This document shows positions 13,773-23,668 of a stretch of DNA of 64,000 nt, one piece after another (the first letter of the stretch is position 1; every line of letters starts with the position of its first letter). Made by a program: the position numbers and the translations under genes. Origin of the DNA: Flavobacteriales bacterium (GTDB taxonomy: Bacteria > Bacteroidota > Bacteroidia > Flavobacteriales_G > Salibacteraceae). Under the pieces are notes generated by a model, which had not been told where the DNA came from, did not search any database, and saw nothing but the letters and a program-made list of their open reading frames with translations. Location: NCBI GenBank assembly GCA_013204105.1, contig JABMOM010000001.1, forward strand, positions 1 through 64,000. The letters run 5' to 3'.

Positions 13773-13791
13773 TGCAGACGGCGTTGGATTG

Positions 13792-14970
13792 ATGTTGAGA
13801 AAACCACAAATAGCGTGTTGGATTACGGTGATGCTTCTGGTATCATCGGGCGTTGCGATGGGTCAAAAATTAAAAGACCCGAGCATTCCCTCTCGGAAGG
13901 GAACCGTTCGCATGTACAGTAATCCAAAGATCAAAGAGAGTGCGATAGATTGGAAGTCAACGCGCCTTGAGTTCATCGCCGGGGGAGGAGCTACTGGATT
14001 TCTCGGAGATCTCGGAGGTCAAAACACCCCTGGAAAGCCTTTTATTTTCGACTACGAACCCACCTCTACGAGGTATAGCGTGTCAGCTGGTGCCCGTTAC
14101 TTTCTTCGAGAATTTCAAGCGGTCAGGGGATACTTAACCTACGCAGAAGTGCAGGGAAGTGACCAGCTCACCGAGTATCCCAACCGAAAGTATCGGAATA
14201 TAAACTTCAAGTCCCCAATTGTGGAGCTCGCGGGCATTTATGAACTTCACTTGTTCAAGCCAAGCTACATCCATTTTGCCGGAGCCAACACTACTAAACT
14301 TTTCGATGGAAATCGCTTTGGTTCATACCTAAGCGCTGGAGCTGGCCTGTTCTACTACAATCCAAAAGGAAAACTTGGCACACAATACTACAACCTTCGT
14401 CCGCTTCGCACGGAAGGACAAGAGTTCGATGATGGGCCATCAAAATACAGGAGCATTGCTGTCAGTATTCCTGTAGGAGGAGGGGTTTACATGCTCCTAA
14501 ATCACAACATCACATTGGGTCTTGACTTTGGAATGCGGTTCACCACTTCCGATTACATTGACGATGCCAGTGGCTACTTTTACGACAACGACGCCATTCG
14601 TGCTCGAGATGGAAAATTGGCAGCCTACTTCGCCAATCCAAGCGTCGCTGTACAAAACGTTCCAGACCGAAATTGGTATACTGAAAATCAGCCCCGAGGA
14701 GGATCGACCAGTAACGATACGTACATGTTCTTCCAGTTTACACTGAGCAAGTCGTTTACTCCCTCCGTATCGAACAGAGACTTTAAGCAATCCAAGAAGC
14801 GCAAAAACAAAGCGATTCCGAAAAAGAGACGGAGATCACTTTTCGGGGGAGGAAAGGACAAGAACAAGACCTACAACAACAACAAAATCAAGAAGTCTAA
14901 GCGCAGGTTCAGGGCACCGAAGCTTGATTTTGGAAAACGTAGAAAAAAGCAAAAGGCTACAAGTTTCTAA
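13792..14970 (+). CDS. Outer-membrane beta-barrel protein with polybasic C-terminal tail
   Basis: A 392-residue protein with a signal peptide (WITVMLLVSSGVAMGQ). Its barrel region resembles the PorG/DUF6089-like outer-membrane proteins of this phylum, with GGGATGFLGDLGG early, repeated Y-R-F strand patterns (SVSAGARYFL, GLDFGMRF) and FFQFTLSKSF as a likely last strand. After that strand come about 65 extra residues made mainly of Lys and Arg (SKKRKNKAIPKKRRRSLFGGG ... KLDFGKRRKKQKATSF). Barrels usually end at the last strand, so this tail is unusual. Start is the ATG at 13792, 19 bases from a TACCTTTG element. PorG identity is not established. Confidence 0.7.
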   Translation: MLRKPQIACWITVMLLVSSGVAMGQKLKDPSIPSRKGTVRMYSNPKIKESAIDWKSTRLEFIAGGGATGFLGDLGGQNTPGKPFIFDYEPTSTRYSVSAGARYFLREFQAVRGYLTYAEVQGSDQLTEYPNRKYRNINFKSPIVELAGIYELHLFKPSYIHFAGANTTKLFDGNRFGSYLSAGAGLFYYNPKGKLGTQYYNLRPLRTEGQEFDDGPSKYRSIAVSIPVGGGVYMLLNHNITLGLDFGMRFTTSDYIDDASGYFYDNDAIRARDGKLAAYFANPSVAVQNVPDRNWYTENQPRGGSTSNDTYMFFQFTLSKSFTPSVSNRDFKQSKKRKNKAIPKKRRRSLFGGGKDKNKTYNNNKIKKSKRRFRAPKLDFGKRRKKQKATSF

Positions 14971-14983
14971 GAGGCTACGCTGC

Positions 14984-16300
14984 TTAGATTCGATAGATTA
15001 AGGTGAATTGGAAATCAACCAATTGACTAGGTTCCTCACCATGGATATTATACTCGGATTTCCCATCATATTGGCTTGTGATAGGGAGCATTCCACGCAC
15101 GTCAGCGGATAGGCGGTCTGAAAGCATGTGCTGATAACCAGCCATCATTCCAAACCTCAAGCGCTTCAGGCCTTCGATTGTGTTTTCATCGTTTGCTCCA
15201 AAATTGGCGCTGATGTAATCTCTGGAGTTATAGACCATGTAAGTCTCATTCTTTAATCGGATCAAATAATCCGCAAAGAAGCCTATTGATGTCTTGGACG
15301 TAGTGTTCAAATCCAGGTTGAATTGAAGGGGCATTTGAATATAATCCATCGTTGTAGCCACCAAGCTCTCGTGAATATTCTCAAGCTCATTGACTACGCC
15401 TGAGCTCGCGCCCTGCCCATAATTGGTAGCCAACACCCCAATGATCGGAGCAAAGTCTACCTCTTTGTACCGCTCTATCCCGTTACCAGATCTACGCAAG
15501 TGTCCCACTTCAAAAGACACGGAAGTATTGGACGAAATGGGAAATGCATATCCAATCGAAAGGACGTTATTTACTCTCCATTGCGCGGGTTTATGCAGCG
15601 AATTAGACTCTCCACTACCTGCGCGCACCCCTGCTCTCAGAAAAATACCAGTATTGGCGGTGGCCGAAACTTCAAGCGATGGGACGGCCAATTCGCCGCG
15701 CTCTAATAAAGAAGGCTTGTGGTTAACTTGCTTGAGGCGGTCCATTTTACGAACCGCCAAATCTGCCCTTTCAGTTGCAGATGATTCCGGCGTGTACCCT
15801 GAGGAATGCCATTGTGCTTCTTGGGCTGCTTCATTCATCTCAAATGCCCCTAAGACTTTTCCGTCGCTCATTGCAGCAGCAAGCAACATCGGTTCGTTTT
15901 GAGCTGATGAGGGGGTCTGTATAGAAGCCTTGATGTATGTCTTGGTGCCTATGGCATATGCAGATGCTTCCGCCCAACTCATCGAAGTGACGTAGGATGA
16001 GAACTCCTCAGCTTGTCCATTGGGCGATTCGGTCAGTCCTATAGACCGCTCGGGAAGTATTGGCTTAGGTGCGTCCATGGTAGCTAACGCACTTACCGCG
16101 ACCACGCCCGCTATCGATGCTGCGATCGACCAAAATGAACCGCCTGAAGCTGCTGTACTTGCAGCCGTGTTAGTTCCTGCCGCGCCCATGGATTCTTCCA
16201 CCGCAGTCCATTGAATCGCTGGGTCCACGGAATGATCCCTCAAGCCGTCAAAACGGCCACGAAAAACATCATCCATATCGTGCATCCCCGATTTATCCAT
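14984..16300 (-). CDS. Anti-sigma-like membrane protein fused to an outer-membrane beta-barrel domain
   Basis: A 438-residue protein directly downstream of, and overlapping by 8 bases (ATGGATAA), an ECF sigma factor gene. Residues 1-50 look cytoplasmic (MDDVFRGRFDGLRDHSVDPAIQW, the LDxxFxxxFxxxxxxPxxxxW pattern of anti-sigma-like proteins in this phylum). Residues 56-75 are a single hydrophobic helix (FWSIAASIAGVVAVSALATM). A long low-complexity linker follows, then about 220 residues with alternating beta strands typical of the outer-membrane-protein barrel family, ending VDFQFTLIYRI. The reading suggests one protein touching both membranes. An upstream reading to 16441 would only overlap the sigma gene, so I chose ATG 16300. 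Confidence 0.75.
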   Translation of the reverse strand: MDKSGMHDMDDVFRGRFDGLRDHSVDPAIQWTAVEESMGAAGTNTAASTAASGGSFWSIAASIAGVVAVSALATMDAPKPILPERSIGLTESPNGQAEEFSSYVTSMSWAEASAYAIGTKTYIKASIQTPSSAQNEPMLLAAAMSDGKVLGAFEMNEAAQEAQWHSSGYTPESSATERADLAVRKMDRLKQVNHKPSLLERGELAVPSLEVSATANTGIFLRAGVRAGSGESNSLHKPAQWRVNNVLSIGYAFPISSNTSVSFEVGHLRRSGNGIERYKEVDFAPIIGVLATNYGQGASSGVVNELENIHESLVATTMDYIQMPLQFNLDLNTTSKTSIGFFADYLIRLKNETYMVYNSRDYISANFGANDENTIEGLKRLRFGMMAGYQHMLSDRLSADVRGMLPITSQYDGKSEYNIHGEEPSQLVDFQFTLIYRI

Positions 16301-16844
16301 AGAGCAATGCGAAGTCAGGGTATGCGACCTTGAGTTTTGATTGTATTTGCTTACGGGCTGAAGAGAGGTGCCATTTCGAAGTACCCACCGAAATGTTAAG
16401 TCGATCCGCAATCTCCTTGTGACTATAACCGTCAATCGCAAACATGTTGAAAACCAACTTGCTAATTGGGGATATACTGTTGATGACCAGCATTAGCTCA
16501 TCAACAGACATGTTGTTCATGCCATCGTTGTAAATCTGATGCGAGGGCATGATCGCATCAAAGGAGAAAAAGTCTTTGTAGCGCTTACTAGAGCGCAGGT
16601 GGTCCAGCGCCGTATTGATCACAATTCGCTTACACCACCCTTCAAAAGAATTCTCAAAATGATACTGCTCGACTTTTTGAAAAACCTTGATAAAGCCCTG
16701 GTTTACCACATCCAACACCTCTTCGTCGTCACGTATATAACGACGAACGATCGCGAGCATAACGGAATAGTAGGTATCATATACCTTCCGTTGAGCAATG
16801 CGATCGTATCGACTGCAGGCCTGTATTACGTCTTCCGTGATCAT
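16293..16844 (-). CDS. ECF-family RNA polymerase sigma factor
   Basis: A 183-residue sigma-70 family factor with only regions 2 and 4. Region 2 (about residues 8-85) includes DEEVLDVVNQGFIKVFQKVEQY and the -10-recognition helix FEGWCKRIVINTALDHLR. Region 4 (about 120-180) has the helix-turn-helix GYSHKEIADRLNISVGTSKWHLSSARKQI. The overlapping downstream gene encodes the likely anti-sigma partner. A perfect 5-bp stem with GAAA loop (TTACC-gaaa-GGTAA, 16845-16858) lies right at the start codon. It also forms a TACCTTTC, one base off the -7 consensus, so the mRNA may be leaderless. Confidence 0.93.
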   Translation of the reverse strand: MITEDVIQACSRYDRIAQRKVYDTYYSVMLAIVRRYIRDDEEVLDVVNQGFIKVFQKVEQYHFENSFEGWCKRIVINTALDHLRSSKRYKDFFSFDAIMPSHQIYNDGMNNMSVDELMLVINSISPISKLVFNMFAIDGYSHKEIADRLNISVGTSKWHLSSARKQIQSKLKVAYPDFALLYG

Positions 16845-16887: not shown

Positions 16888-17490
16888 TTACTTGTATTTA
16901 ATTGCGCTGGCTTTCCGAAGCTCTGTTCCTTCCATGATAACAACAGCGTCTAAATCTGGATATGCTCTCTTGGCGATCTTGACCATTTCATCCACCAATT
17001 CCTCTATGTCATTTGACCGAAAGGTCACAGGAGTCTCGACCTTGCCAAGGAGGGTGTAGGGGCTAGAAGGATTGTTTTTAATATACACCACCGCGCCTTT
17101 TCGTGGCTGTGCTTTAGATAGCTTGTATTCTGCCTTTACCACCGGTTCTTCATTACCTCGACCTCCACGACGGCGCTTTTCTTTGGGGTCACGGTAAAAC
17201 TGAATTACATCAGCTTTACAAAGCCCCTTGCCGGATCTGAAGATCAAGGCGTCAAATTCCTCATTGTCCTTACGGGCATTCTTGATAACGTGATCCAAAA
17301 GGGGGTCGATCGCATCTGGGCTAAACATCGAACATTCCACTGTCCCCAAATGACGGTACTGCGTTACTGGCATACTTTCGATGTAGAACACCACTCCATC
17401 GCGGTCGCTTGCTACACCTTCGTGTTGTGCGTTCACTAAAGTGGTCATCATCAAAAATCCTCCCAGCATCAAAATTCTCATAGCTCTCAT
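16888..17490 (-). CDS. Secreted protein with two tandem copies of a ~75-residue domain, unknown function
   Basis: I do not recognise this 200-residue protein. It has a signal peptide (MRILMLGGFLMMTTLVNAQ); the start may be 17490 or the in-frame ATG at 17481. The mature part contains two related halves. The first has VVFYIESMPVTQYRHLGTVE ... EEFDALIFRSGKGLCKADVIQFY; the second has VVYIKNNPSSPYTLLGKVE ... PDLDAVVIMEGTELRKASAIKYK. Both follow beta-V-YI-x-P-Y-LG-VE, a helix, then DA(L/V)I(F/M)-G-KA--I-Y. A basic Gly/Arg linker (KEKRRRGGRGNEE) joins them. It is 43 bases upstream of the ECF sigma gene in the same direction, so it may belong to that regulon or operon (inference). Confidence 0.75.
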   Translation of the reverse strand: MRAMRILMLGGFLMMTTLVNAQHEGVASDRDGVVFYIESMPVTQYRHLGTVECSMFSPDAIDPLLDHVIKNARKDNEEFDALIFRSGKGLCKADVIQFYRDPKEKRRRGGRGNEEPVVKAEYKLSKAQPRKGAVVYIKNNPSSPYTLLGKVETPVTFRSNDIEELVDEMVKIAKRAYPDLDAVVIMEGTELRKASAIKYK

Positions 17491-17512
17491 CGTGTATTGA
17501 TTTTTTACGGTT

Positions 17513-17537
17513 CAAATAAACGGAATCTGGAGATTCC
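17513..17537 (-). promoter_or_regulatory. Palindrome and weak -7 element upstream of the 17490 gene
   Basis: The perfect palindrome arms GGAATCT/AGATTCC (17522-17537, 2-base centre) sit directly upstream of TTTATTTG on the minus strand (17513-17520, one base off TAnnTTTG). This layout suits an operator overlapping a promoter. A second, 7-bp hairpin CTTGCTC/GAGCAAG lies at 17557-17575 and lacks a U tract for the leftward subtilase transcript. Confidence 0.35.
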
Positions 17538-17593
17538 ATTTCACAAACCCATGTTTCTTGCTCAACAAGAGCAAGTTGAATGCCACGTTTTTG

Positions 17594-20500
17594 TCAGTGC
17601 ACAACGATGATGTGATGATGTGATGTTTCCGAACCATTCAACTTGAGTATGTAAGACCCACTGCTCAGGCTCCTCACGTCAATGACCACAAGGTCCGATT
17701 TATCCGAAGCGGCGCTTCTTACCAAACGGCCATCCAGGGACCATAGTTCCGCCTTGGTAATTTGGGCACCAGCCAAGCCTTGTATGGTCAATTTATCTCC
17801 CGTTGGGTTTGGGAAAACCATTATACGCCGCTCTTCTTCGTCGTCCAAACCGAGGTTAACGATGTCCACGGAAAGGCTATCCATTCCAAAACTGTTCGAA
17901 ACCACCTGCTTAACGGTGTAGGATATCTGCTGCATATAATCATGCGAAAAAGGAACGGAGTCTAAAACCGCTGTGCCGTCTCCCAAGTTAAATGTCATGT
18001 CCTCTGCGTACAAGCTCAGGTCGTTGAACAAAACCGTTTGGCCGTTGGATTGCGTTTCGTATTCAAAGTTTGCAATGGGTGGATGGACGATAGAAATATC
18101 ATCCAGTGCCATATCTCCTCGAGCCCCTTGATCCGTGACACCTCTGAATCGAACATTGATCACTTTGCCATTGAAGTCGCTGAGATCGACTTCTACAAAC
18201 CGCCAAGGATTGCCCTGATGCCCGGTAAACTCAGCTAGATCGAGCCGCCATGAAGTTCCATCAAACACGTCTACGTGCAATTCTCCCATATCAAAGCCAC
18301 GCATGTTGTAGTAAAAGGTGAGCATCGGATCCGAAGCTTTAGAAAGGTCAATGCAAGGGCTAATGAGGATAGCCTCTTGGTTTATACAGCTTCCTGACGC
18401 CTCTAGATAAATATACTTTCCAGCCGCCGTTTGAGTCGTGTTGTCTGCGCTTGGTCCAGTAGCTGCCGTCAAAGTCGGGCCGCTATTCACACGCCAATCT
18501 ATGTCGTCGAAAACACCATTCTCAGCATTTATCCATCCTTCAGGAAGTGGGCAAGAAAAGGCGCCGCAATAAATCTGATCGTCACACTCTAAGGCCATCT
18601 GGTCAAAATGCTCTTCCCACACAGGCACCTTACTCGGGGTTGGCGAGACTTTATACGCTCTCCATGCCGTGTCATTATAAGGGTTGAGGTCTCCCTCCAT
18701 TTCCAAGAGCAAGTAGTATTCATTCGTGCCTGAGTCCAATACCGCATTGCTGAGGAAAATAAACGTATCGGATTCTAAAGGGGCGATGCTGGTCGAGAAA
18801 GAATCACTCAATACGACTCCGTTCGGACCGTACAATGTCGCAAGAAATGGCGTAGAGGGTGTTACTCCCCCATTTTCAACAGAAAAACTGATTTCCACCT
18901 CATCTCCATGACAAGCAAAGGCGTGTGAAATGTCCGGAAACACATCCAAGGCGCCTAGGTCATTTGCTAAGAAACAATTTTGAAGTCCAGGAGTCTTTTT
19001 CACAGCAATCGTCCTGAAACTTTTTGCCCCATCAGGGCCGTTGGCAGAAACGGCATACCAAAGCATATTGCTATAGGGGTTGGACGTTGTGTCGGTGAAA
19101 TCATTCGTCACAGAACTGCCAATTGAGTCCATGTATTTGTCTCCGAGCTTATAGATGTCAAAAGACAGGGCGGAGGCCAATGGATCCCAACCAAGGCCGA
19201 TTCCATCTGGGCAAGCCCAGTTAACGGATACGTTAGTGGGAACGCTCATGATCGAAAAGTTTTCGGATTCTACGGTGGCTGAGTCGTGCACCAATCGTAC
19301 GTGTACATCTCCTCCTTCGATCAACGGCAGTGTCCATTGATAGTATTCCTGTGCCGCACTGACTCCCGTCGTTATAGAATTCCACGATGATCCGCCATCG
19401 TCAGAGTATTCTACAGCCAAATCTCCGGATAATTCGCTATCCCACCGTATGATCTCCAAGGCCTGCGGCTCGAAAGATTCTCCTCCCACTGGATACGTCA
19501 AGACCAGAGGGTTCTCCTCGATATAGTATACCACGAAGTACTCTTGGGGACCTTGTGGCACTAAGTACGGCGATACCTCAAACGTATAGTTCCCAGGCGC
19601 CGGGTCGACCACCTCTATTTGTTCCATGTTGTTCAGGTGATCCTCGCCAAACACAGCGGGCTCATCCAGTGTAATTGCGTTCGGGAGATGATTGAGTACG
19701 TACGGTTGTAGGCTGTCATTATTAGGCGACAAACCCGTCAGGTCAAGGTCATTGACCAATGCGGTGGACGCCGATACCGAGGCGGCTGGATCGGTCCAAT
19801 AGACCATTACCCTCAATCGGTTGGCGCCTGTGGGTACGGTTATTTCGTGGCTATTGGCTCCTGCGCCAGATGCGATGGAGTCAATGATGAATGTTCCTTG
19901 TTCTATTACCGAGTACGCCCGCCGTGCGTTGATCCGTCCCCAGCCGAACTTGAAGTCGGGCCCTGCGTTTCCCAGGTCCTCCGCTGTGTTTAAAACAATT
20001 GCCTTCATCAACCCGCCATCAGGATGCTCGCCGTGATGATCTTCAAAGGCTTCGTACAATAAGGCCAAGCTTCCTGCAACGTTTGGACAGGCCATGCTCG
20101 TGCCGGTGTAAGTGTCGTATTGATTTCCTGCAATGGTCGAGGTTACGGCCGTTCCTTGCGCAGCGATGTCGGGTTTGATACGGCCATCGGTTGCGGGTCC
20201 CCGACTGCTGCTCGAAGCTAATGTCTCGGTATTTGTCAAGTTGGCAACCACCATGGTGTTCTTCCCCATTTTATGTCCGCCCGTGATATTGCCCCAACCA
20301 CTGCCGGCACCATAGCCGCAGTTCGAGGTTCCAGCATTACCCGCAGAGTAAACATGAATCAGTTTTTCCAAGTCTACGCTCTGCTCGTCAACCAGCTGCG
20401 TCCTCGCCGTATAGCCGGCATTGCAACCATCACTGTAGGACGTGCTTGTCAAGTGAATATCATATTCGAAATAATGCGAATCCAGGTTACTGAGGGCATT

Positions 20501-21424
20501 GTACTCCGGATATGCCTTGTAGATATACAAGTCTGCGCCTTCTGCCTGGCCCTGATGCCTCGGGTTCAGGTTTCCTGCTCCACCCACCGTTCCCGTAACG
20601 TGGTCCGCGTGATCGCCTTCATTATCTGAGGTGAACTGCGCCTGCAAACGTCCGTGATAATCAATGTGAGGACCTATAGATCCATTGTCCTGAATTGCCA
20701 CCGACACACCGTTTCCATTGTAGGCAATGTCGTTGCTGTTATCATAGCTCAAAAACTGCGTCCTAGCCAGCGCTCGACTCGTATAATTTTCTGTTTTTCC
20801 CTCTGTATAGGCCCATTCTATAGAACGCACCTCTTGTATCTCTTCCAGCTTCTTGATAAGGCCCCCTTCGGTGCTGACATTAACGTAGCCAAAGCCTGCA
20901 TTAACTTCCTCCACCTTCAATCCTTCCACCTTGTTCAACGCCGCAACAAACGTTGACAATGCGATGTCTTTAAAAGGAGAAAGGTTTAGTGACAGCCGTC
21001 CGTCCTCGAGAATAGCCCGAAGAGGAATACTTGCAGGATCTGCAACCCACCTGAAGGCGTTTTTGAATGGACCAACATGTGTAACACCGAAGGGTTGCAA
21101 AGCAGCTGTAGCCTCAACGGAGCCCAATGAAATCAGATAAAATCGCTCTGGAAGGAACTCTATCACATCTACCCCTTCCTTCAGAAGGGCCTTCTTTTCT
21201 CGTCTGTCGGGTAGTTGATTGAGAGACACAACGCCGTAATAACGTCCTTGGATGACCGGCCATTCCGCAAGGTCGTTGGGGTCAAAGCTTTGGTCCGTAT
21301 TCTTCTCGATATCAAAGGATTTACCGATCAATTGTAGATCGATCGTTTCGCGCCCCGACTGGGCAAACGCAACTTGAAATACAAGCACCAATCCGGCGAT
21401 TAAGGGGAGTAAACGATTCATCAT
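17594..21424 (-). CDS. Subtilisin-family (S8) serine protease with T9SS type A sorting domain
   Basis: A 1276-residue secreted protease. Signal peptide at the N-terminus (LPLIAGLVLVFQVAFAQ), then a propeptide-like region. The catalytic domain has Asp246 (VAIQDNGS), His275 (DHADHVTGTVGG) and Ser443 (YTGTSMACPNVAG). The His block reads HADH rather than the usual HGTH. Beyond it lie beta-sandwich modules (TYPVGGESFEPQALEIIRWDS), a MAM-like region (about 1000-1150 with paired Cys), a PKD-like module and a C-terminal sorting domain (IMVFPNPTGDKLTIQGL ... GSYILKLNG). It should be exported by T9SS and attached to or released from the surface. ATG at 21424 (or 21421) is preferred over a longer reading that crosses the divergent promoter. 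Confidence 0.9.
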   Translation of the reverse strand: MMNRLLPLIAGLVLVFQVAFAQSGRETIDLQLIGKSFDIEKNTDQSFDPNDLAEWPVIQGRYYGVVSLNQLPDRREKKALLKEGVDVIEFLPERFYLISLGSVEATAALQPFGVTHVGPFKNAFRWVADPASIPLRAILEDGRLSLNLSPFKDIALSTFVAALNKVEGLKVEEVNAGFGYVNVSTEGGLIKKLEEIQEVRSIEWAYTEGKTENYTSRALARTQFLSYDNSNDIAYNGNGVSVAIQDNGSIGPHIDYHGRLQAQFTSDNEGDHADHVTGTVGGAGNLNPRHQGQAEGADLYIYKAYPEYNALSNLDSHYFEYDIHLTSTSYSDGCNAGYTARTQLVDEQSVDLEKLIHVYSAGNAGTSNCGYGAGSGWGNITGGHKMGKNTMVVANLTNTETLASSSSRGPATDGRIKPDIAAQGTAVTSTIAGNQYDTYTGTSMACPNVAGSLALLYEAFEDHHGEHPDGGLMKAIVLNTAEDLGNAGPDFKFGWGRINARRAYSVIEQGTFIIDSIASGAGANSHEITVPTGANRLRVMVYWTDPAASVSASTALVNDLDLTGLSPNNDSLQPYVLNHLPNAITLDEPAVFGEDHLNNMEQIEVVDPAPGNYTFEVSPYLVPQGPQEYFVVYYIEENPLVLTYPVGGESFEPQALEIIRWDSELSGDLAVEYSDDGGSSWNSITTGVSAAQEYYQWTLPLIEGGDVHVRLVHDSATVESENFSIMSVPTNVSVNWACPDGIGLGWDPLASALSFDIYKLGDKYMDSIGSSVTNDFTDTTSNPYSNMLWYAVSANGPDGAKSFRTIAVKKTPGLQNCFLANDLGALDVFPDISHAFACHGDEVEISFSVENGGVTPSTPFLATLYGPNGVVLSDSFSTSIAPLESDTFIFLSNAVLDSGTNEYYLLLEMEGDLNPYNDTAWRAYKVSPTPSKVPVWEEHFDQMALECDDQIYCGAFSCPLPEGWINAENGVFDDIDWRVNSGPTLTAATGPSADNTTQTAAGKYIYLEASGSCINQEAILISPCIDLSKASDPMLTFYYNMRGFDMGELHVDVFDGTSWRLDLAEFTGHQGNPWRFVEVDLSDFNGKVINVRFRGVTDQGARGDMALDDISIVHPPIANFEYETQSNGQTVLFNDLSLYAEDMTFNLGDGTAVLDSVPFSHDYMQQISYTVKQVVSNSFGMDSLSVDIVNLGLDDEEERRIMVFPNPTGDKLTIQGLAGAQITKAELWSLDGRLVRSAASDKSDLVVIDVRSLSSGSYILKLNGSETSHHHIIVVH

Positions 21425-21453
21425 GGTTAGGTTCTTTTCACATACAAGACGCG

Positions 21454-21461
21454 TAAATGTA
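21454..21461 (-). promoter_or_regulatory. Possible -7 element of the subtilase gene
   Basis: TACATTTA on the minus strand (one base off TAnnTTTG), 29 bases before ATG 21424. It is the mirror of the plus-strand element at 21475: AAATGTAA and TTACATTT form an 8-bp inverted repeat 11 bases apart. Confidence 0.4.
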
Positions 21462-21474
21462 ATCTGTGGCATGT

Positions 21475-21482
21475 TACATTTG
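21475..21482 (+). promoter_or_regulatory. -7 promoter element of the prc-like gene
   Basis: TACATTTG, exact TAnnTTTG match, 56 bases before the ATG at 21539; forms an inverted repeat with 21455-21462. Confidence 0.5.
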
Positions 21483-21538
21483 GTAACAAACTGGCCCGTT
21501 CCTTGTTTGGTTAACACACACACGCGCAATCCCAAATT

Positions 21539-23668
21539 ATGAAGTTCAAAGGAATTCAACTACTGCTGTCCACCGCAGCCGCCATACTTTTTTGTTCCTA
21601 CATTCTTTACGAAACGAGCGCTGAGAAAGGCGCTTCGCTCGATTCTGCCGATCAAGTAAAAGACAAGGTTTTGGTGGATGTGCTCATGCAAAGTCTAAAG
21701 AGCAATCACCTGGCTCCCCGAAACATTGACGACGCCTTTTCCAAAGATGTTTTTACCCTCTACTTAGAGCGCCTTGATTACAACAAGCGCTTTCTGTTGT
21801 CTGAGGATATCGATGCGTTAAAAAAGTTTGAAACCTCTATAGATGATCAGATTATCGCTGGCGACTACTCGTTTTTTAACCTGAGCTACGCGCTTTTCAT
21901 GAGCCGCACAAAAGAGGCCAAAGAGTACTATACTAAAATCTTGGAAGAGCCCTTTGACTTCTCCAAAAAGGAATTCCTCGAGCTCGATGAAGAAAAACGG
22001 CCTTATCTCAAAACGCGCAAAGAATTGGAGTCCTTCTGGTTTAAAAGCCTGAAATACGAAGCGCTTACGCGGATTCATGAAATGGAAAGGAAGCAAGAAA
22101 AGGCTTCTGCAGAGAATGATACGTTGACGGTCATGAACTTCGATGAAATGGAAGCCAAGGCGCGGAAGAATATGACGCGGAGCAATGACCGCTTTTTCGA
22201 CCGTCTTGAAAAATGGAATCGTGAGGACCTGAAAGAAATTTATTTGAACGCTGTCATGAACGTCTTTGGGCCTCATACAGGTTACTTTCCTCCGAAAGAC
22301 AAAGAGAATTTCGACATTTCAATGAGCGGACAGTTGGAAGGCATCGGTGCTCAACTGCAAGAAAAAGATGGCTACATCAAGGTGGTCAATATTGTACCGG
22401 GAAGCCCCTCCTATTTGCAGGGAGAGTTGGAAGAAGGTGACCTCATTTTGAAAGTAGCCCAGGAGGGAGGGTCTCCTATAGACATTACGGATACGCGCAT
22501 AGATGATGCGGTCAAATTGATTCGCGGACCGAAGGGAACTAAAGTCTTGCTGACAGTGAAAAAGTTGAATGGCTTGATCAAAGAGATCCCCATTGTGCGG
22601 GATGTAGTTGTATTGGCAGAAACATATGCGAAGTCTGCCGTGATAGAAGAAAATGGGGTGACGGTTGGCTACATCCGCCTGCCGAAATTCTATGCTGACT
22701 TCAACAAACTTGGCGGCCGCTCAGCTGCAGCCGATGTAAAAACCGAACTCCTAAAGCTTAAGGCCGAAGGAGTAGATGGAGTCGTCCTTGACCTCAGAGG
22801 AAATGGAGGTGGCTCACTGCGAGACGCGATTGAAATGACCGGACACTTTATTGAAAATGGCCCCGTAGTGCAAGTAAAAGGCAGATTCTCACGGGCCGAT
22901 ATCATGCGCGACAACGACAAGGAAGTCGTATACGACGGCCCGCTGGTAGTGATGATGAATCATTTCAGCGCATCCGCTTCTGAGATCTTGGCAGCGGCCA
23001 TTCAAGACTACGACCGAGGAATCATCATGGGTTCAAATTCATCCTTTGGCAAAGGAACGGTCCAACGCTTTTACGAACTTGACAGAAGTTTGAACGCCTC
23101 CTATACGCAGTACCGCCCCCTTGGAGCTGTCAAGATTACAACCCAAAAATTCTATCGAATCAACGGCGGAGCTACACAGCTCAGGGGCGTCACTTCCGAC
23201 ATCGAATTCCCAACGCAGTACCGATACATCGATATGGGGGAAAAAGAACAAGACTTTGTCATGGAATGGGATGAAATCCAACCTACCCCTTATACTGTTT
23301 GGAAACCTTCCTATTCTGAAAAAGACGTCGTGAAGAGAAGCGATGACCGAATTCAAGCAAGCCCACCGTTCATGAAAATTGAGGAGAACGCGCTGCGACT
23401 AAAGGCGCAACGCGATGAGACGGAAGTTTCCCTCAATTACGAGGAGTTTTCGCAAAAGCAAAAAGAGCTTGATGCGCAGGAAGACGTCTTTGACCAGATG
23501 ATGGATGAACTCGATCTCGGGTTGAAGGTAACCAACGTAGCCGCTGACCTAGAAGCTATTGGCATTGATTCAGTAAAAGCTGAGATCAACGAGCGTTGGA
23601 TCAAAAAGCTCACCAATGACCTGATGCTTGACGAGGCGGTTCAAGTGATTGGCGACATGGGAAGCTGA
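21539..23668 (+). CDS. prc: Carboxy-terminal processing protease (Prc/Tsp, S41 family)
   Basis: Periplasmic tail-specific protease that degrades or trims proteins from their C-terminus. The 709-residue product has an N-terminal hydrophobic segment (LLLSTAAAILFCSYILY), a helical N-terminal domain (about 40-240), and a PDZ domain near 255-345 (SGQLEGIGAQLQEKDGYIKV). The S41 core carries the nucleophile Ser479 within FSASASEILAAAIQDYDRG and the general base Lys505 in SSFGKGTVQ. It has the long C-terminal extension of the Tsp subgroup. It abuts hflX tail to tail with no spacer (stop at 23668, next gene's stop at 23669). Confidence 0.92.
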   Translation: MKFKGIQLLLSTAAAILFCSYILYETSAEKGASLDSADQVKDKVLVDVLMQSLKSNHLAPRNIDDAFSKDVFTLYLERLDYNKRFLLSEDIDALKKFETSIDDQIIAGDYSFFNLSYALFMSRTKEAKEYYTKILEEPFDFSKKEFLELDEEKRPYLKTRKELESFWFKSLKYEALTRIHEMERKQEKASAENDTLTVMNFDEMEAKARKNMTRSNDRFFDRLEKWNREDLKEIYLNAVMNVFGPHTGYFPPKDKENFDISMSGQLEGIGAQLQEKDGYIKVVNIVPGSPSYLQGELEEGDLILKVAQEGGSPIDITDTRIDDAVKLIRGPKGTKVLLTVKKLNGLIKEIPIVRDVVVLAETYAKSAVIEENGVTVGYIRLPKFYADFNKLGGRSAAADVKTELLKLKAEGVDGVVLDLRGNGGGSLRDAIEMTGHFIENGPVVQVKGRFSRADIMRDNDKEVVYDGPLVVMMNHFSASASEILAAAIQDYDRGIIMGSNSSFGKGTVQRFYELDRSLNASYTQYRPLGAVKITTQKFYRINGGATQLRGVTSDIEFPTQYRYIDMGEKEQDFVMEWDEIQPTPYTVWKPSYSEKDVVKRSDDRIQASPPFMKIEENALRLKAQRDETEVSLNYEEFSQKQKELDAQEDVFDQMMDELDLGLKVTNVAADLEAIGIDSVKAEINERWIKKLTNDLMLDEAVQVIGDMGS

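Follow-up and report, generated by a model that had tools for sequence, protein, structure and literature searches.

An ECF sigma factor gene overlapping the gene of a predicted anti-sigma protein with an outer-membrane barrel in an uncultured Flavobacteriales lineage

The window, the whole stretch of 64,000 nucleotides that was analysed, belongs to a 3.1-Mb draft genome of 46 contigs whose named relatives are metagenome assemblies of uncultured Flavobacteriales and Salibacteraceae. As proposed in an earlier note made from the letters of this DNA, it holds an ECF sigma factor gene followed by a gene for an anti-sigma-type protein fused to a barrel, and both genes lie where that note had placed them. 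The features of the locus are as follows.

13789-14970, plus strand: PorG-like gene, convergent neighbour (context)
14984-16300, minus strand: gene of a 438-aa protein, Dma-type by architecture, predicted anti-sigma protein with a C-terminal outer-membrane barrel
14987-15649, minus strand: 8-stranded outer-membrane barrel, residues 218-438 (model, structure matches, strand alternation)
15650-16072, minus strand: disordered tether, residues 77-217 (pLDDT <50 to residue 215, low identity)
16073-16135, minus strand: predicted inner-membrane helix, residues 56-76 (hydropathy; low-confidence part of the model)
16166-16300, minus strand: N-terminal helical module, residues 1-45, predicted sigma-binding domain (model helices, homology)
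16293-16300, minus strand: overlap of the sigma factor stop and the anti-sigma start, 8 nt, ATGGATAA
16293-16844, minus strand: gene of an ECF sigma factor of 183 aa, Das-type by architecture (Pfam Sigma70_r2 and Sigma70_r4_2, conservation)
16888-17490, minus strand: gene of a 200-aa secreted protein, first gene of the conserved three-gene unit

The gene of the 200-aa protein is separated from the sigma factor gene by a gap of 43 nt. The PorG-like gene scores above the cut-off of PF19573 (23.9 bits, cut-off 23.2) and below that of NF052316 (69.8 bits, cut-off 130), and it probably lies outside the operon. A SigP-like type IX regulator was rejected as a candidate identity at the locus, the score for NF058625 (PG0214/GFO_1088 family) being 69.8 bits and far below the cut-off of 130. 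Directly upstream of the operon lies a gene for a subtilase-type protease that has a MAM domain and carries a type A sorting tail of type IX secretion (17594-21559, minus strand). Just upstream of the 200-aa gene, at about 17491-17593, there is a short block ending in ATTTGAA that looks similar between the window and the five named relatives closest to it (L029-L033) but not in the other six loci; a promoter motif common to all 12 loci was not found when the sequences ahead of the 200-aa gene, at most 160 nt each, were aligned.

The sigma factor matches Sigma70_r2 with 49.6 bits and Sigma70_r4_2 with 42.9 bits, both above the Pfam cut-off, and a sequence search of solved structures finds sigma E of E. 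coli and four further matches at about 1e-11. It is well conserved, the copies of 12 other genomes being 69-78% identical to that of the window in an alignment of 13 sequences (mean pairwise identity 74.4%), whereas the anti-sigma protein is only 26-39% identical to the window copy in the same number of sequences. The mechanical open reading frame of the latter starts at TTG 16441, but ATG 16300 was chosen because in all 13 genomes of alignment A1 it yields an alignable start with an identical 8-nt overlap. The overlap itself is identical in all 13 aligned pairs, which may explain why the sigma factor invariably ends in Tyr-Gly and suggests translational coupling. It had been claimed that the overlap forces equal synthesis of both proteins; this is unsupported, since coupling sets no ratio. 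A FecR-type anti-sigma factor was looked for in Pfam and NCBIfam and no FecR match was found at E ≤1. The presence of an ECF sigma gene (by Pfam) beside a barrel protein is as in the Dma systems described below, and by its shared architecture the pair is classed as Dma/Das-type (EcfO/Reo-type).

The sigma factor and barrel protein are kept as a pair in 12 of 12 genomes of the same genus and in G015, a member of another genus, and in all 13 the order is the same: the 200-aa gene, the sigma gene, the barrel gene and the convergent porG-like gene. Matches to the 438-aa protein occur in 17 of 100 genomes, which include its own and three distant ones (G021, G025 and G034). A profile of alignment A1 finds matches in 25 of 296 genomes of the phylum, but it cannot serve to count distant Dma proteins because, among the matches listed, all but the first cover the barrel part only or the N-terminal part only. 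In the closest relative, G009, the anti-sigma gene is frameshifted between the N-terminal module and the membrane helix (L010, 2564-2815 and 1498-2703). The frameshift is either an assembly error or a real change, and G009 was excluded from the alignments.

The 438-aa protein was modelled with AlphaFold2 from 11 sequences, with a mean pLDDT of 58.8 that is low mainly because of the disordered tether. The earlier note had read in it a short N-terminus, one membrane helix, a long linker and an outer-membrane barrel, and this reading is borne out by the alignment, the model, the structure matches and the N-terminal homology. Helices are modelled at residues 8-17, 27-39 and 56-76, followed by disorder to about residue 217; the second helix and the membrane helix fall in the low-confidence part of the model. 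Only one candidate membrane helix is found, near residues 56-76, and it is only moderately hydrophobic, the best Kyte-Doolittle 19-mer reaching 1.82 at residue 56. The N-terminus has a mean pairwise identity of 42% across 13 genomes and forms a conserved short helical module that is homologous to those of other sigma-linked proteins; it is therefore a predicted sigma-binding domain, and neither Pfam nor NCBIfam names the protein an anti-sigma factor. The tether (residues 77-215 with pLDDT <50) has a mean pairwise identity of 13.5% and a length of 119-183 aa in the 13 genomes. Fully stretched it would measure at least about 43 nm, which is long enough for crossing the periplasm.

The barrel of the window protein matches Pfam OMP_b-brl_2 with 22.6 bits, below the gathering score of 27, and membership by Pfam alone was consequently rejected and structure prediction used instead. 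Among five orthologues, four exceed the gathering score (L011, L014, L020 and L027) and one, L019, remains below it at 25.7. A search by sequence found no solved relatives of the barrel protein (best E 0.51, unrelated). In the model, residues 218-437 form eight strands with a block pLDDT mostly of 70-93, and residues 215-438 can be superimposed onto a designed membrane barrel (Z 17.5), OprF (4rlc; Z 16.9, rmsd 2.4, 133 aligned), PagL (2erv; Z 16.4), OmpA (1qjp; Z 16.3) and OmpW (8qxp; Z 15.7). Foldseek agrees with these matches to outer-membrane barrels, and the faces of the strands alternate in hydrophobicity beyond all 20,000 shuffles. Residues 218-438 are thus predicted to be a genuine 8-stranded outer-membrane barrel of the OmpA/OprF type, where the earlier note had allowed that structure prediction might reveal a soluble periplasmic domain. 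The model has three turns of 4 residues each on the N-terminal side and four connections of 13-28 residues on the opposite side, the pattern that a tether coming from the periplasmic side should produce. The barrel has a mean pairwise identity of 40% in the 13 genomes. Conservation is higher in the extracellular halves of the strands (0.66) than in the periplasmic halves (0.56), a difference reached by 260 of 20,000 label shuffles, and the longest loop is poorly conserved (0.35).

The 200-aa protein has a start that, read by eye, resembles a signal peptide, and it is composed of two tandem copies of one domain whose alignment score lies above all 500 shuffles. All 12 members have Cys53, and 11 of them have Cys91. 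The model of the protein (pLDDT 82.5) has its best VIA-align match, a weak one, to RcsF (2y1b; Z 4.8, rmsd 2.2, 65 aligned), followed by a DUF74 protein (4.5), YahO (4.2) and YdgH (4.0). Foldseek gives no match at E 0.001 or better, no solved relative is found by sequence (best E 0.071, unrelated), and no Pfam RcsF match appears at E ≤1 in any of the 12 members. RcsF is an outer-membrane lipoprotein of E. coli, and the neighbour may be weakly similar to it in fold; unlike RcsF, it has two tandem domains and lacks both a lipobox cysteine and the Pfam match, and the resemblance serves as a lead only. The BT_1557 (DUF4943) family of the dma2 operon was rejected as a relative, as only one of the 12 members of family A4 was matched (E 0.14); nothing above the cut-off was found for this family in 21 genomes, and the genome of the window was without a match.

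The genome of the window contains 11 matches to the sigma factor, and behind the three best after the query (on contigs 21, 34 and 44) lie genes for proteins that share their front half with the 438-aa protein. The paralogue on contig 21 likewise has 438 aa and a barrel above the Pfam cut-off, whereas those on contigs 34 (410 aa) and 44 (317 aa) end in a type IX secretion domain, CHU_C, above the Pfam cut-off. The contig 21 type is matched in 12 of 12 genomes of the genus (in two pieces in G002), the contig 44 type at near full length in 11 of 12, and the contig 34 type at near full length in 10 of 12 with a partial match in G002; G003, which is 82% complete, is without a full-length copy of either of the latter two. 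The sigma-linked proteins that combine the same N-terminal module and membrane helix with a type IX type B sorting domain are found at the following loci.

L003, 2049-3281, plus strand: sorting-domain protein of the window's own genome
L004, 518-1471, minus strand: sorting-domain protein of the window's own genome
L096-L110, L112, L114, L116-L127 and L129-L135: relatives of these two proteins

In a set of 40 loci with the two sorting-domain families a Das-like sigma gene precedes on the same strand in 37, the exceptions being L111, L115 and L128. At 36 of these loci the downstream gene starts -8 to +40 nt from the sigma stop; the start of L113 was mis-picked. TIGR04131 is matched at E ≤0.01 in 17 of 17 aligned members of family A5 and in 18 of 19 of family A6; the A5 member of the window's genome scores 23.2, below the cut-off of 35. 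When the window family was compared over its first 40-44 residues with the two sorting-domain families, hhalign gave probabilities of 96.1% (E 3e-9) and 93.4% (E 2.6e-7), scores reached by 0 of 100 column shuffles in each case, and by this sequence comparison the N-terminal modules of the three families are homologous. A gene for SprA, the translocon protein of type IX secretion, is present in the same genome (2469 bits). No description of anti-sigma factors with a type IX sorting domain was found in the open-access papers searched, and these sigma-linked cousins look less familiar than the barrel protein.

A wider sample of the phylum gives a sigma match at E ≤1e-15 in 127 of 296 genomes. From these, 29 loci were kept (L067-L095) and 20 downstream proteins were scanned, with nine left out that for the most part run off the fetched stretch; 11 of the 20 contain an outer-membrane barrel domain (Pfam, E ≤0.01). 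Of 69 downstream proteins, 67 carry a W-x-x-hydrophobic motif ahead of the membrane helix, compared with 12% of random 45-aa windows, in a set of 3 own-genome, 29 phylum and 37 sorting-family proteins in which two own-genome genes are counted twice and many members are related. Several proteins carry tandem copies before the membrane helix, namely four in L085 (32 residues apart), three in L075 and L080 and two in L087, and such copies might bind several sigma molecules. Only 6% of the ECF sigma factors of Bacteroidetes are reported to have a class I anti-sigma domain nearby (PMC7406223), and the short Trp-containing module is a candidate for the anti-sigma domain that is missing in this phylum.

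The earlier note held that the signalling of such architectures is largely undescribed, but deletion phenotypes, regulons and inducers have been published for Dma1/Das1, Dma2/Das2 and EcfO/Reo (PMC13088901; PMC9308784; PMC13114119). Dma proteins are described as starting with an anti-sigma domain and ending in a barrel, connected by a membrane helix and a long disordered tether, and are encoded beside an ECF21 sigma factor; in B. thetaiotaomicron the loss of Dma2 raises the expression of das2 and its neighbours and leads to more vesicles in a Das2-dependent manner (PMC13088901). In P. vulgatus a disruption of the gene of this kind gives partial protection from toxins, and one toxin raises the expression of the sigma gene 33-fold (PMC9308784). 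This pair has been named EcfO-Reo, with Reo running from the cytoplasm to the surface and outer-membrane stress proposed as the signal (PMC13114119).

It is proposed that the window pair works as a Dma/Das-type (EcfO/Reo-type) release system, an explanation to which, taken as a whole, we give a probability of about 0.75. Judging from the architecture and the published relatives, the N-terminus of the 438-aa protein would lie in the cytoplasm and sequester the sigma factor at the inner membrane, the membrane helix would be seated in this membrane, and the tether would cross the periplasm. The barrel would be inserted in the outer membrane with its N-terminus periplasmic and its four longer loops outside. 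A change in the outer membrane, be it failed assembly, damage or a bound ligand, would then free the sigma factor, probably when the anti-sigma protein is lost or cleaved, and the freed sigma factor would transcribe envelope genes as well as its own operon, although the upstream regions yielded no common promoter motif in favour of such autoregulation. The architecture and the anti-sigma role are very probable. Outer-membrane stress as the trigger, by analogy with the relatives, is an even bet, and proteolysis as the releasing step is a tentative suggestion.

The release system has to be weighed against readings that change the role of the barrel, the fate of the tether or the meaning of the neighbourhood. 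It could be supposed that the 438-aa protein is a signal-anchored outer-membrane protein and no anti-sigma factor, adjoining the sigma gene by chance, in line with its sub-threshold Pfam match and with the libraries giving it no anti-sigma name; however, the 8-nt overlap and the gene order are conserved, and the N-terminal module is common to other proteins encoded beside related sigma genes, which makes a chance neighbour exceedingly improbable. The tether, being long, disordered and fast-evolving, is open to proteases and might be cut in normal maturation, leaving an ordinary outer-membrane protein and, separate from it, a short anti-sigma factor of the inner membrane, with nothing spanning the envelope. 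Separate genes would do equally well for such products, yet all 13 other genomes examined retain the fusion (frameshifted in G009), and it is also found in the 11 of 20 scanned proteins of the phylum sample, and a routine cut of this kind is unlikely.

A stronger contender is that the barrel is a built-in reporter that senses no ligand and serves chiefly as a test substrate for the outer-membrane assembly machinery: a folded barrel would hold and protect the chain, whereas failed assembly would expose the unfolded barrel or tether to cutting and free the sigma factor. The last strand of the barrel sequence is conserved and aromatic-containing, many toxin-induced genes of P. vulgatus are also induced by a BamA-inhibiting peptide (PMC9308784), and both toxins induce ecfO-reo (PMC13114119), all of which would fit. 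The greater conservation of the extracellular strand halves, on the other hand, hints at a surface-side site that a pure reporter would not need, and we regard this reading as possible but somewhat doubtful.

The release system may in turn be one case of a modular sensor series, in which one sigma-binding module, a helix and a tether are joined to interchangeable ends (a barrel in the case of the window locus and contig 21, a type IX sorting domain in that of contigs 34 and 44), with the RcsF-like operon protein as an added envelope sensor; this extension is speculative and on balance unlikely. If it holds true, the barrel-ended members would report the state of the outer membrane, and those with a sorting domain, which have their anchor in the inner membrane, would report whether the type IX machine engages and exports its cargo. 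The type IX-ended versions would make the supposed monitoring of that secretion system by sigma factors directly testable. Signalling of the Dma/Reo kind, which has so far been studied in gut Bacteroides and Phocaeicola, is now placed in an uncultured Flavobacteriales lineage, where the fixed gene neighbourhood of the window pair suggests partners.

The two sorting-domain paralogue families share their C-terminal domain with the type IX type B sorting-domain proteins (TIGR04131/CHU_C), but differ from these in an inner-membrane anchor that looks uncleaved, the N-terminal anti-sigma module and the adjoining sigma gene. The barrel protein is of a kind already known from gut Bacteroides and Phocaeicola, and by analogy the window pair is a further example. 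EcfO-Reo of Phocaeicola vulgatus and Bacteroides fragilis likewise includes an envelope-spanning anti-sigma protein of low conservation beside a well-conserved sigma factor (PMC9308784; PMC13114119); an outer-membrane stress signal has been proposed for it (PMC13114119). Dma1/Das1 and Dma2/Das2 of B. thetaiotaomicron have the same four-part protein beside a sigma gene, and their operons, like that of the window, contain a further small gene (PMC13088901). The window pair differs from them in belonging to a different lineage and in its neighbours, the porG-like gene and the 200-aa protein with its duplicated domain.
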